Below, piece by piece: positions 58,315 through 64,000 of a stretch of DNA of 64,000 bases; the stretch's first letter is position 1, and every line of letters begins with the position of its first letter. Source of the DNA: Saprospiraceae bacterium (GTDB taxonomy: Bacteria > Bacteroidota > Bacteroidia > Chitinophagales > Saprospiraceae); contig JALHQW010000001.1 in NCBI GenBank assembly GCA_022841745.1, positions 77,166-141,165 on the forward strand. The letters run 5' to 3'. A program made the position numbers and the translations under genes. A model generated the notes under the pieces. It was given only the letters and a program-made list of their open reading frames with translations. It did no database searches and had not been told where the DNA came from.

Positions 58315-59832
58315 CTACTTCCAATCCGGCATTTCAGCGTTTTGGAACATCGTCAGTCTGCCTTGACCTTGGTCGCTCATGATCAAAATATTGCGCTGCG
58401 AATTGGGCGCATTGCTCGTTTCGACGAAAATGACTTGGGCTCCGTTGGGCGAAAACTTGGGGTCGAGGTCGTTGAAGCCCGAAGGTTTTTCGATGGAAAG
58501 GTCGGTGGTTGCCCCAGTCGCAATTTTTCTCAAGAAAACATGAGCGTTCAACTGTCGGCCATCAGGAGTTTCGAGGCCGTCAATATCATGGGTAAAAAGG
58601 ATAGCACTGCCATCAATGCTGAACGAAGGGCCGCCGATGTTTCCGGTGAGGTCAGATACCAACTCCTGCTCCAAGGAGCCACTGGAGTTAAACAGCAAAA
58701 TTCGACCGATATAAGGTTGGCTGCCGACTGTCCTTGCCGCCACTTTATTGGTGACGGGTGCCCAGTCCACCTCTACAAACTCCTCTGTCACAGGCAACTC
58801 AGCAAACAACTCAAACCCGCTGCCATCCAAGTTCACTGTGTACAGCCGGTTCCTGTTCATGAAAAGCAGCTTGGTGCCGTCTGGTGACCAGCAGTAATCC
58901 AATTGGAACATATCCTTGCCGTCAATCTGCAAGGAAGCGGGCACGAGCGTAGGGTCTGTGCCATCCCGTTTCATCACAAATATTTGGGTATTGATGAAAT
59001 TATTGTTCAAAAAGGCCACCTTATCGCCCAACGGGCTGATGCGGGGGCGGAAGCTGCTGCCAGCCAAGTCGGTCATTTGATAGAGCGGTAGGCTGGGGTT
59101 TGCGCTTTGCGCAGCAAAAACATCGTATTTGCCGTTGGCAATTTTGGCGAAAACAAAAGGGTGGGGCGGGAAATCCTTGGTGGAGAAACTCCAAACCTCG
59201 CTGAAAACCGGGTCGTTCTCGCCGTCGTGCGCCACAACTTGCCAAAAACAGGTGGTGCCATATCTCACATTGGCCAATTGGAAAACGGTATCGGTGATGC
59301 CTTCGGCAACGAGGTTGCCTGCCCCTTGCAGGGAGTGGAAGGTGTAAACATCGAAGGTCAACGCATCGTCGTCGGGGTCGCTGGCCGTCCATTTCAACTG
59401 TAGTGAGATGTCAAGACCTGTTGCGCCATTCAAGGGGAGGATGGGTTTTGGTGTGGAGGGAAGGCCGTTTCCCACGGTTTTTTCCGACATGGTGACGATG
59501 ACGGCGCTTTCCTTGTTTTCCAAGATGGCCACTGATTCTGAAGTGGCTACCAGCCCTGTTTTTTCTGCCCGGATGGTATAGTTCCCCACTTCAATTTCAT
59601 CGAAGACAAATCGGCCTTGGGCATCGGTGATTACTTGGCTGGTCGGGGGATTCGTGGAGACGAAGGCATCGGCTACTGGGGTGCTAGAGCCTTCCAGCAA
59701 CACTTGGCCAGACAAGGAGCCAAAGATGTCTGGTTTTATGGTATCCTCGCTGCAAGCTGCGGCAAGCAATATTACCATTATTGCAGCGCAAAAAAATTGC
59801 AAACGATTGATTTTATGTATAGATAGGTTCAT
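58315..59832 (-). CDS. lipoprotein with carboxypeptidase-regulatory and PD40/TolB-like propeller domains
   Basis: 505 residues. A lipoprotein signal ends in the box LAAAC (C27) followed by SED. An N-terminal CarboxypepD_reg-like domain is seen at about 38-115 (GSLSGQVLLEGSSTPVADAFVS), then a fibronectin-like region (about 125-225), then WD40/TolB-like beta-propeller blades with RISPLGDKVAFLN, CWSPDGTKLLFMN and KFSPNGAQVIF. It is the last gene of the curli operon, 45 bases after csgG, and may help surface assembly or anchor the fibre; this is inference. Confidence 0.8.
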   Translation of the reverse strand: MNLSIHKINRLQFFCAAIMVILLAAACSEDTIKPDIFGSLSGQVLLEGSSTPVADAFVSTNPPTSQVITDAQGRFVFDEIEVGNYTIRAEKTGLVATSESVAILENKESAVIVTMSEKTVGNGLPSTPKPILPLNGATGLDISLQLKWTASDPDDDALTFDVYTFHSLQGAGNLVAEGITDTVFQLANVRYGTTCFWQVVAHDGENDPVFSEVWSFSTKDFPPHPFVFAKIANGKYDVFAAQSANPSLPLYQMTDLAGSSFRPRISPLGDKVAFLNNNFINTQIFVMKRDGTDPTLVPASLQIDGKDMFQLDYCWSPDGTKLLFMNRNRLYTVNLDGSGFELFAELPVTEEFVEVDWAPVTNKVAARTVGSQPYIGRILLFNSSGSLEQELVSDLTGNIGGPSFSIDGSAILFTHDIDGLETPDGRQLNAHVFLRKIATGATTDLSIEKPSGFNDLDPKFSPNGAQVIFVETSNAPNSQRNILIMSDQGQGRLTMFQNAEMPDWK

Positions 59833-59877: not shown

Positions 59878-61320
59878 TTAAAAACCGGGGTCTCGCTGCT
59901 TTTCCGTTTCAAACTTCCTGGCTCCTTCCACTTTCCTGCCGAAGTAAAAATTCACCCCAATATTCCCACGCCAATAGAAATCATTGTATTTGCCTTGTTC
60001 TACCTGGTCAAGGCGGTCGTTGATGAGGTAGTTGTAATCGGCGCTGAAACGGATGCCGGTTGCATCATTTACCAGCACCTCAAAGCCACCACCGATTTGT
60101 GCCTTTGCATAGACAGGAGCGCTGAAATCAAGACGGGTATTGACGTTTTCCGTGATGAACCCAAGGCCGGAATAAAAGAAGGGCGTAAACTGGTCATAGG
60201 GGAATAGCCTGTATTTGACTGCGAAATCGAAATAACTGACCTTGGAATCATAGAATTTCTTGGTGGAAAGGGAGTTAAGGCCCGCATTGAACAGGATGCC
60301 GATAGCCGGTTTGGGGTTTACTTCAAATCCTAAATCAAGCCCCGTTTTTAGGACAGCATCAGGGTAATCGCCTTGATAAAGCAGGCTTGAAGTGCCAGCT
60401 TGGAACGCCGCTATGCCTCTTCGGTTATCTATGCGCTTGCCAAAAATATCCGTCTTGGCAATCATTTCTTTTTCCTTTTTGTATTCCTTGATGGGCGATT
60501 CTGCCACCATCCTCGCTTCGGCTGGTGACCATAGGTCGCCATCTATTCCCTCAATGACGAGGCTCATTACGGCCTTTTCAATGGCTTCCGTTACGGCAAT
60601 TTCTGAGGGTTCGTTGTAGGTGAAACCCGTTTCCACTTCCAGCAGCCGTTTGTATTTCACGAACTGGAACATACCGCCATCCAACTGTTGGGAAAGCAGG
60701 GTTTTTGAGGTATAAACCGTTTTCAGGATTTTGCCATTGCTTGCTGATACCGCCCGAAGATAGACAGTCACTCGGTCTTGCCTATACTGGCTGCTGCCCC
60801 CTACGCCGAAATAGCGCAAGCCAGCCCCTCCCGTAATCACGTTGGCGTCATAGCTCACAATGCCGCCTTCCAGAATCACGCCTGCGTAAAGGAGCGGTGG
60901 TAATAGGTTGTCTTGTCCTTCACCACTTTGGTTGTTGTACTGTGCCCGACTGCTCCTGATGATTTTGCGCTCATTGAGTAGGTTGCCCACGTTTTCCCGC
61001 TCGATGGGGACGAACCAGCCGGAATCGTCCAAGGCTTTGATGAGGATATTGGTTGCGCCTTGGGTGACAGCAGTGCTCCAGCTTGTTCCGCCTTCGGTTG
61101 GCTTGTATTGGCCCGATTGGTCTCGGAATTTATAGACGGCCACCACGATTTTTTCCTTGGGGGCTGGCAAGCTCTTTAGGTCGAGGGTGCTTTGGGTCTC
61201 TTCGCCTAGCCGGGCCTTCGTCTGTTGGATGGGCTGATATAGGTAAGATCCACAACCCGATAATAGGGTGGCAGCTATGATTAATGCGAATTGATACAGC
61301 CAGGTGTGAAGTTTGTCCAT
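59878..61320 (-). CDS. csgG: CsgG-family curli secretion channel, C-terminally extended
   Basis: Outer-membrane lipoprotein that forms the nonameric pore for curlin subunits. The lipobox is LLSGC (C23). The CsgG domain includes KIVVAVYKFRDQSGQYK, AVTQGATNILIKALDDSGWFVPIERENVGNLLNERKIIRS, and DRVTVYLRAVSASNGKILKTV; it ends near residue 280. A further 190 residues (to 480) form an additional beta-strand-rich region with an OmpA-like barrel pattern (HLDLGFEV... YKFAVKYRLFPYDQFTPFFYSGLGF), not present in E. coli CsgG. The gene lies downstream of csgF and upstream of the lipoprotein gene in one operon. Confidence 0.92.
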   Translation of the reverse strand: MDKLHTWLYQFALIIAATLLSGCGSYLYQPIQQTKARLGEETQSTLDLKSLPAPKEKIVVAVYKFRDQSGQYKPTEGGTSWSTAVTQGATNILIKALDDSGWFVPIERENVGNLLNERKIIRSSRAQYNNQSGEGQDNLLPPLLYAGVILEGGIVSYDANVITGGAGLRYFGVGGSSQYRQDRVTVYLRAVSASNGKILKTVYTSKTLLSQQLDGGMFQFVKYKRLLEVETGFTYNEPSEIAVTEAIEKAVMSLVIEGIDGDLWSPAEARMVAESPIKEYKKEKEMIAKTDIFGKRIDNRRGIAAFQAGTSSLLYQGDYPDAVLKTGLDLGFEVNPKPAIGILFNAGLNSLSTKKFYDSKVSYFDFAVKYRLFPYDQFTPFFYSGLGFITENVNTRLDFSAPVYAKAQIGGGFEVLVNDATGIRFSADYNYLINDRLDQVEQGKYNDFYWRGNIGVNFYFGRKVEGARKFETEKQRDPGF

Positions 61321-61488: not shown

Positions 61489-61902
61489 TCAAAAAAACGG
61501 AATAACGATTTGTGTGCTCTCACCTTGGGCTTGGTCAAAAATGGTGATGGTCAGGCCATCGAAAGTGGTAGCCACGTCCACTTGGAAGTTGCCGAGGGTA
61601 TAGACGCCGTCTTGAAGGCCTTCTTCACCAAACTGGTCAGAGATCAATTGCCTCGAAATTTGGCTAAGCAACAGGTTGTTGAGGTTGCTGGCGAAAGCGT
61701 CCACCGAGCTTCTGGTGGTGGTCCTGCTGCGGTTTTCGGAGGTCAAATCCTGCACTTGGGCAGAACTGAGCAACCAGTTGTAATTAAAAGTATCGCCGCC
61801 GAAGGCAGGGTTTTTAGGTTTATAGACGAGGTCTTGTGCCGCTAATTGCGAAGCGATGCAGATAAGGGCCAAGGCAAAAAATGACTGTATGATATTCTTC
61901 AT
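61489..61902 (-). CDS. csgF: CsgF-like curli assembly factor
   Basis: 137 residues with signal peptide (MKNIIQSFFALALICIASQLAAQ) and the CsgF hallmark DLVYKPKNPAFGGDTFNYNWLLSSAQVQ. CsgF binds the CsgG pore and links it to the CsgB nucleator; its N-terminal part forms the pore constriction in E. coli. Length is in the family range. The gene lies 26 bases after csgE and 168 bases before csgG, with an inverted repeat in the gap. Confidence 0.9.
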   Translation of the reverse strand: MKNIIQSFFALALICIASQLAAQDLVYKPKNPAFGGDTFNYNWLLSSAQVQDLTSENRSRTTTRSSVDAFASNLNNLLLSQISRQLISDQFGEEGLQDGVYTLGNFQVDVATTFDGLTITIFDQAQGESTQIVIPFF

Positions 61903-61928: not shown

Positions 61929-62690
61929 CTAATAAATCCCACTTCCAGAAATGTCTTCGGCACCAATTTCTTGGTAGGCTGCATCAGGGTTTTTGATTTG
62001 GTTGTAAAGCATTTCCACCAGTTGTACCGACAGTTGTTCCATGAGTTCCTGCCTTGGCTGGAGGTTCATTTGGGTTAATTCGATCCCATCAAGGTCAATT
62101 GCGATGCGGGAGCCATTGCCAACAATGGCAGGCTGCTCTCTTATGATGATGGAGTAGTTGGTTTTTAGGTCTTCCTCCACGACCCGCCAGCTTGTGTAAA
62201 ACAACTCGTAAAAATCGTGGGCCAATTTCGACCTCGTTTCGTCCAAAACTAGCCCTTCTATTTCTATGTCATCCACATTAAGGCGGTCGGAATTGGGCGA
62301 ACGAACGATGTTCTCTTCTTTGCTTTGCACTTCCTGTTTAGGCCCTTGCAGCTCGGCTTTAGCGACCAATTCATCGTTCTTGAAAATAAAGAGATGAACT
62401 GCGTCAAACTGGCCACCCTGAACCAAGTAGCTGGCATTGAGCAACAAGTTTGGCTGGTCGGGAATTGCCAAGGTTTTGCCTTCTTTGATGAGGGTATCCT
62501 TGTTGATTAAAAGGGCTTTGTAGCGAAGATGAAGTGGGGAATGAGTATGGTTTTGGCACCAAGTGGAGATGATAGCATTGCCATCAGCCGATTGAATGTC
62601 AACCCATGCAGTGACCGTGGCGGGTCGCTGGACGATGGAGGTTGCTGCCAGCAGGGGCAGCAAGAGTAGGGTGAATAGTGTTTGTTTCAA
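61929..62690 (-). CDS. csgE: CsgE-like curli chaperone with an N-terminal CsgC/CsgH-like domain
   Basis: 253 residues. The C-terminal half (about 137-235) is CsgE-like: IEGLVLDETRSKLAHDFYELFYTSWRVVE followed by the strand NYSIIIREQPAIVGNGSRIAIDLDG and a final helix. The N-terminal half after the signal peptide (about 20-130) resembles the Ig-like chaperones CsgC/CsgH: VDIQSADGNAIISTWCQNH...KEGKTLAIPDQPNLLLNASYLVQGGQFDAVHLFIFKNDELVAKAEL. If so, one protein would combine anti-amyloid and CsgE channel-capping roles. The CsgC/H call is inference from the strand pattern. Sits between csgB and csgF. Confidence 0.8.
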   Translation of the reverse strand: MKQTLFTLLLLPLLAATSIVQRPATVTAWVDIQSADGNAIISTWCQNHTHSPLHLRYKALLINKDTLIKEGKTLAIPDQPNLLLNASYLVQGGQFDAVHLFIFKNDELVAKAELQGPKQEVQSKEENIVRSPNSDRLNVDDIEIEGLVLDETRSKLAHDFYELFYTSWRVVEEDLKTNYSIIIREQPAIVGNGSRIAIDLDGIELTQMNLQPRQELMEQLSVQLVEMLYNQIKNPDAAYQEIGAEDISGSGIY

Positions 62691-62755: not shown

Positions 62756-63319
62756 TTATTGCCCAACCCTGTGTACAGTTACTTTCAGGTCGTTGCCTAC
62801 TTGGCGGATGATGAATCCTTCACTGTGGATATTTTCAAGGACTTGAATGATTTCATTGTTGTTGCCTATCTGCACCAATTCGCTCCTTACTTGGCTGCTG
62901 TTGATCAGTTGTTGGTTGATCTTGTTGTTGGAGCCATCCTGAAAATTCACCAATTCGTTGTCGGCACCGTAGTTCACCAATTCATAGTAATTGTTGTTTC
63001 CGCTTTGAATGAGCGCCAGTTTGTTGCCACCCTCGGTTTGAAGGAGTTCGGCTATGTTCGAATTCCCTGATTGCAGCACCCTTGCGAGGTTGCCTTCAAG
63101 GTTTTCCTGCTGCTGCAAAAGCTGGAGTTGGTTGTTGTTCCCCAACTGTTGGATATATGCCTCGCTTCCCGCCCTAGTCGTGCCCAAGTTGAGCAGTTCG
63201 GATGGCTGTGCCAGCAAATCCGATTCGCTCAGCATTTGTGCCGAACAAGGAAGGCTAAGCCCAAGTGCGTACAGCACAAATAGGGCTAAATGCCATCTTT
63301 TTTTAAACGGCTTTAACAT
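62756..63319 (-). CDS. csgB: curlin-repeat protein, CsgB-like
   Basis: 187 residues from the ATG at 63319, which gives a clean signal peptide (MLKPFKKRWHLALFVLYALGLSLPCSAQ); the frame is open to 63370. The mature protein has curlin-type repeats with GNxN turns: IQQLGNNNQLQLLQQ, VLQSGNSNIAELLQT, LIQSGNNNYYELVNY, GADNELVNFQDGSNNKINQQL and LVQIGNNNEIIQVLEN. The C-terminal repeat ends in basic residues (LKVTVHRVGQ), as in the nucleator CsgB. It is the second curlin gene after the partial one at the window end, so nucleator is the likely role. Confidence 0.85.
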   Translation of the reverse strand: MLKPFKKRWHLALFVLYALGLSLPCSAQMLSESDLLAQPSELLNLGTTRAGSEAYIQQLGNNNQLQLLQQQENLEGNLARVLQSGNSNIAELLQTEGGNKLALIQSGNNNYYELVNYGADNELVNFQDGSNNKINQQLINSSQVRSELVQIGNNNEIIQVLENIHSEGFIIRQVGNDLKVTVHRVGQ

Positions 63320-63380
63320 TGGGCGGAGGGTGGATGTCAAGGCTTCGTTCTTAGGGAGGGGATGTTTCACTTAAACAAGT

Positions 63381-63466: not shown

Positions 63467-63562
63467 AAGGATTGGGGGATTGAAGGTTTGAAGGATTGAA
63501 TAGTTAAGGCGTCTGCGTTCTATGTTATTCAATCCTTCAATCCTCCTCCCCTTCAATCCTTA
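63467..63562. repeat. GGATTGAAGGATTG mini-repeats in inverted orientation
   Basis: The left side carries reiterated GGATTG(A)AGG and the right side its complement (CAATCCTTCAATCCT), so the block folds back on itself. It ends next to the stop of the downstream-most curlin gene. The same motif is carried in frame in lnt. Confidence 0.75.
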
Positions 63563-64000
63563 ATTATTCGACTGCGTAACGGTGGCCGTATTGTTGTTGC
63601 CAATTTGGCGAACGATATTGGTGTGCTCGGCACCCGTTTGCGAGTTGATGGTCTTGTTTTCATCTCCTTCTTGGCGGATGGAGCTTGAGTTCAAATCGCC
63701 TTGTTGTACCAATAGGATGGAGTTGTTGTCTCCGATTTGGATCAGGCGAGGGTCGTTCCCGGCACCGGCGAAGTTGTTGTCGCCATTTTGCAGCATGTTG
63801 ATTTGGTTGATATTGCCTTCTACAGTAGCGCCCATGCTGTTGGAAATGCCGTTTTGTGTAACGACGTTTAGGTTGGCATTGCCAATGATGTTCAATTTGG
63901 CAAATTGGTTTTCTCCATTCTGTGCTTGGGCAGAGTTGTTGTTGTTGCCCTTCACGTCAATTTGAGCGGAGTTGTTGCCCACGCCAAGCTGCTGCTGAAC
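63560..64000 (-). CDS. csgA: curlin-repeat protein, CsgA-like, 5' partial
   Basis: At least 146 residues; the frame runs on past the window end (before the internal GTG, residues QQQLG are still curlin-like), so the start and signal peptide are missing. Five or six curlin repeats with the pattern Q-x-G-x-x-N: QAQNGENQFAKLNI, VTQNGISNSMGATVEGNINQINMLQNGDNNFAGAG, RLIQIGDNNSILLVQQGDLNSSSIRQEGDENKTINSQTGAEHTNIVRQIGNNNTATVTQ. Probably the major fibre subunit. First gene seen of the curli operon, preceding csgB by 240 bases. Confidence 0.87.
   Translation of the reverse strand, partial: VQQQLGVGNNSAQIDVKGNNNNSAQAQNGENQFAKLNIIGNANLNVVTQNGISNSMGATVEGNINQINMLQNGDNNFAGAGNDPRLIQIGDNNSILLVQQGDLNSSSIRQEGDENKTINSQTGAEHTNIVRQIGNNNTATVTQSNN

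Follow-up and report, generated by a model that had tools for sequence, protein, structure and literature searches.

Curli systems of Bacteroidetes have been reported to lack csgC (PMC3521004), which left the question of how Bacteroidota keep curlin soluble. The DNA analysed here, a stretch of 64,000 nucleotides (the window), carries a curli operon whose csgE gene bears on this question, as its product contains about 95 residues ahead of the CsgE domain that are conserved among relatives. CsgH-type sequences have been noted in Bacteroidetes, in passages that do not mention a fusion to CsgE (PMC4838910); the Bacteroidetes set of that paper may include fused CsgE N-termini that passed unremarked. 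A survey from 2023 tallied CsgC or CsgH per genome (PMC10192328), and tallies of CsgH that rely on separate genes overlook a fused form. No description of a CsgE-CsgH or LysM-CsgE fusion was found in the open-access literature searched, a search in which a subscription-only paper could be missed. The original prediction for this gene was a CsgC/CsgH-like N-terminal half joined to a C-terminal CsgE half.

A csgE gene with an extended N-terminus

The reading frame starts at a TTG codon shared with two relatives, L031 (82% identical) and L032 (61% identical), and encodes the only CsgE detected in its genome. The order of its parts, established by alignment and domain searches, is as follows:

61929..62690, minus strand: csgE gene (253 aa, TTG start) encoding a signal peptide, a CsgC/CsgH-family domain, a linker and CsgE (open reading frame, translation, Pfam, profile comparisons)
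62628..62690, minus strand: signal peptide, residues 1 to about 21 (hydrophobic N-terminus that aligns with the signal peptides of relatives; putative cleavage site)
62346..62627, minus strand: CsgC/CsgH-family domain, residues about 22-115, without the GxxGTSxxxQxG hairpin (hhalign, hmmsearch, alignment)
62262..62345, minus strand: linker, residues about 116-143 (alignment: variable length, low conservation)
61986..62261, minus strand: CsgE domain, residues 144-235 (PF10627, 45.9 bits against a cut-off of 25; phmmer to 2na4)

The C-terminal half is thus CsgE, as predicted, and the E. coli CsgE structure 2na4 was the sole credible PDB match of the window protein (phmmer, E 0.0011). E. coli CsgE, in contrast, has no extra N-terminal domain. 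The linker of about 28 residues exceeds 100 residues in some relatives. In L031 (27-788) the residues LAAC at the end of the signal peptide could be a lipobox, whereas the window protein reads LAAT there; judged from this motif, the CsgE of L031 may be a lipoprotein.

All genes of the surrounding operon, a Bacteroidota curli operon, lie on the minus strand in this order: two curlin genes, csgE, csgF, csgG and a lipoprotein-like gene. The neighbours of csgE are:

63560..64000, minus strand: curlin, extending beyond the window; 296 aa in the genome (L053; PF07012, 36.2 bits)
62756..63370, minus strand: curlin-like protein (PF07012 curlin repeat, 20.4 bits, slightly under the cut-off; repeat count)
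61489..61902, minus strand: csgF (PF10614, 125 bits)
59878..61320, minus strand: csgG with a C-terminal extension (PF03783, 215.6 bits; OMP_b-brl, 19.4 bits, under the cut-off)
58315..59832, minus strand: lipoprotein-like gene with CarboxypepD_reg and PD40 domains at the end of the operon (Pfam; also in related curli loci)

The CarboxypepD_reg/PD40 gene, or a shorter relative of it, was present at all related curli loci examined and is an unnamed, constant partner of the curli operon in Bacteroidota. CsgG of the window (480 aa) is far longer than that of E. coli, the CsgG proteins of relatives are of similar length, and residues 324-441 weakly resemble an outer-membrane beta-barrel domain (under the cut-off). 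In three genomes of the same genus (G471, G495, G503) CsgE was undetected, which indicates that the curli operon is patchy within the genus.

Assignment of the N-terminal domain to the CsgC/CsgH family

Searched alone, the window protein matched no CsgC or CsgH HMM, NF041112 and PF21112 included, and neither the protein nor its clade alone gave a convincing match for the N-terminal half among library models or PDB entries, only CsgE being recovered. Weak matches to U2A' in the PDB searches were dismissed as chance, and the viral contigs searched contained no relative of the window protein. We gathered CsgE proteins from other Bacteroidota and then inspected the region ahead of their CsgE domain. 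The profile of the fused domains obtained in this way matched the window clade with an hhalign probability of 96.1% (E 3.3e-9, score 49.4; best of 100 column shuffles 21.6), and an enlarged fused set of 33 other Bacteroidota sequences matched the window domain at 97.7% (E 1.4e-12) and at 37.9 bits with hmmsearch. The fused-domain family in turn matched free CsgH at 99.3% (E 5.9e-20) in profile comparison. Compared directly with four free CsgH proteins, the window clade scored 24.5 (E 7.5e-4) at a probability of just 25.6%, the maximum of 100 shuffles being 17.6.

Searches of the PDB with the fused-domain profile, built without the window protein and without free CsgH, point to the same family. 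The best match was CsgC, the enterobacterial curli chaperone (PF10610; structures 2xsk, 2y2t and 2y2y), at an E value of 2.8e-5, followed by an unrelated entry at 0.14. When the window protein and free CsgH were added, the CsgH structure 2n59 ranked first (3.1e-9), which demonstrates consistency only because the query then contains free CsgH. In addition, the N-termini of several fused relatives exceed the cut-off of 35 bits of the CsgH model NF041112 (L037, 40.2; L022, 36.0; G281, 46.2; G1059, 50.9; G950, 49.2 bits), and these N-termini also give weak CsgC matches. By transitive profile homology, we therefore assign the N-terminal domain of the window protein to the CsgC/CsgH family, its likeness to which the original prediction had read from strand order and which, at the level of sequence, is borne out.

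Distribution of the fusion and replacement of free csgH

Three architectures were called by reading the alignments of the region ahead of CsgE in Bacteroidota: an Ig-type domain roughly 100 residues long, a LysM domain, or no recognised domain. The fusion was present in 36 of the 59 CsgE-bearing Bacteroidota genomes examined; it is thus not peculiar to the window protein and represents a common architecture in this phylum. LysM domains precede CsgE at nine loci from other Bacteroidota recognised by eye (L003, L004, L006, L008-L013), and the three of these that were tested were confirmed by Pfam (47.5, 31.5 and 30.9 bits). With such a domain, the curli gate could be attached to peptidoglycan.

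The presence of a fused domain is associated with the absence of a separate csgH gene. A free csgH gene accompanied bare CsgE in 5 of 13 genomes and fused CsgE in 2 of 36 (Fisher p 0.010 by genome and 0.017 by genus, with kinship handled to the genus level only and an HMM that may overlook divergent free copies). By the same HMM, no free csgH was detected in the other eight genomes with bare CsgE or in ten more genomes, nine of the LysM type and one of unclear architecture (G203). In four loci with bare CsgE (L042, L043, L044, L045) free csgH immediately precedes the lipoprotein-like gene, whereas this position yielded no csgH either in the window or at the fused loci L031, L032 and L046-L049. 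Free CsgH of Bacteroidota (L042-L045, L081, L091) shares the operon with CsgE, and its domain can be aligned with that of the window protein; it differs in being encoded by a separate gene ahead of the lipoprotein gene (or, in L091, adjoining csgE) and in not being joined to CsgE. Both exceptions in which fused and free forms co-occur belong to one genus (L091 and L092, genomes G935 and G1001), and in L091 free csgH lies immediately ahead of the fused csgE on the same strand; these pairs are perhaps an intermediate or a duplication. The fused CsgH-family domain thus largely takes the place of a separate csgH gene, and this replacement is partial. A tree of CsgE domains (62 rows, 99 columns) groups the proteins by architecture and does not resolve the number of fusion origins. 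Judged from profile homology, gene order and the occurrence of free csgH mostly beside unfused CsgE, the predicted joining of CsgE to a CsgC/CsgH-family domain is real and widespread.

Divergence of the window domain and its possible role

The window domain departs from its family in several respects. The curli chaperone CsgH (NF041112/PF21112; structure 2n59), which was first named in Alphaproteobacteria, is the product of a separate gene, whereas the window copy is homologous by profile but fused to CsgE and has neither the hairpin motif nor the cysteine pair; fused relatives of it nevertheless pass the CsgH cut-off. According to the alignment, the window domain has lost about six residues and with them the GxxGTSxxxQxG hairpin, which is the best conserved CsgC/CsgH stretch in the alignments made here and which many fused relatives retain. 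PMC4838910 defines CsgH by two distant cysteines that form a disulphide. Only one cysteine is found in the window domain, the second being absent, so that neither a CsgH-type nor a CsgC-type disulphide would form within the domain; two free CsgH proteins recognised by the HMM (L044, L045) likewise have no cysteine pair, with zero cysteines in the domain. Compared with CsgC, the window domain lacks the CxC motif, as its single cysteine implies, and is not encoded by a separate gene. The same paper reports that CsgC and CsgH have isoelectric points some two pH units higher than that of their curlin and rely on a positive patch (PMC4838910). The isoelectric point is 6.4 for the window domain and 4.1 for the CsgE half, as against 4.5 and 5.8 for the two curlins; the domain is only slightly less acidic than these, and a gap of roughly two units is seen for one curlin but not for the other. 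Among the other fused domains it spans 4.1 to 9.4, which indicates that a conserved positive patch is not general and that function may differ by lineage. Loss of the most conserved hairpin of the family in the window lineage suggests that the domain may inhibit amyloid formation only weakly or in a changed way there.

Work on E. coli places a nonamer of CsgE beneath CsgG, and CsgC and CsgH stop CsgA from nucleating (PMC5135000). We consider it likely that the window protein is a curli secretion factor, CsgE, with an N-terminal Ig-type domain of the CsgC/CsgH family, an architecture that is common in Bacteroidota and largely replaces the csgH gene, and that may both cap CsgG and guard curlin. 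By analogy with its E. coli counterpart, the CsgE half would form a ring closing the periplasmic mouth of CsgG and admitting curlin. The fused domains, each held by a linker of some 28 residues, would encircle this cap at its periplasmic side, where they would meet incoming curlin and prevent nucleation before it is handed over. The suggestion in the original prediction that one protein could hold curlin soluble and cap the channel is plausible. If true, a CsgH-family domain inside CsgE answers the question of curlin solubility for many Bacteroidota, and inhibitor and gate act at one site and in a fixed ratio.

Alternatively, a domain of CsgH descent might no longer be an amyloid inhibitor and instead dock or space the protein, for example by keeping CsgE close to CsgG, to the lipoprotein or to the cell wall. 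The loss of both the conserved hairpin and the cysteine pair in the window domain would fit such a role, as would the acidic nature of the fused domain in several relatives and the LysM domain found in the same position elsewhere in Bacteroidota, which suggests that the N-terminus can anchor. However, the stretch WCQNH..SPLHLRY of the N-terminal domain is strongly conserved across the window clade and has a similar counterpart in one free CsgH, and the hairpin motif persists in many fused relatives. We regard a pure docking function as unlikely.

Structure prediction adds little to this picture. AlphaFold2, run with a three-sequence alignment only, gave a low-confidence model of the domain with seven strands and a short helix (mean pLDDT 57.6) and a mean pLDDT of 37.8 for the mature protein, a quality too low to reveal an Ig-like sandwich; Foldseek and VIA-align searches with the domain model turned up nothing informative, and CsgC and CsgH were both absent from the lists. 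It is very improbable that the domain is an unrelated beta-rich domain whose likeness to CsgC/CsgH arose by convergence or reflects an artefact of the profiles: the window copy has no direct HMM match and Foldseek returned just weak NTF2-like and other matches, but these carry little weight given the quality of the model, the profile scores are well above those of shuffles, and intermediate relatives exceed the curated CsgH cut-off and share the operon.

We propose more tentatively, as a generalization that could well fail, that in much of Bacteroidota a single protein acts as both curli gate and anti-amyloid chaperone, with CsgH-type domains arranged in a ring at each CsgG channel to disarm curlin on entry and an N-terminal slot that can be swapped between CsgH, LysM and nothing. 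The CsgH-CsgE fusion represents a natural chimera for probing the co-operation of CsgC/CsgH with CsgE.
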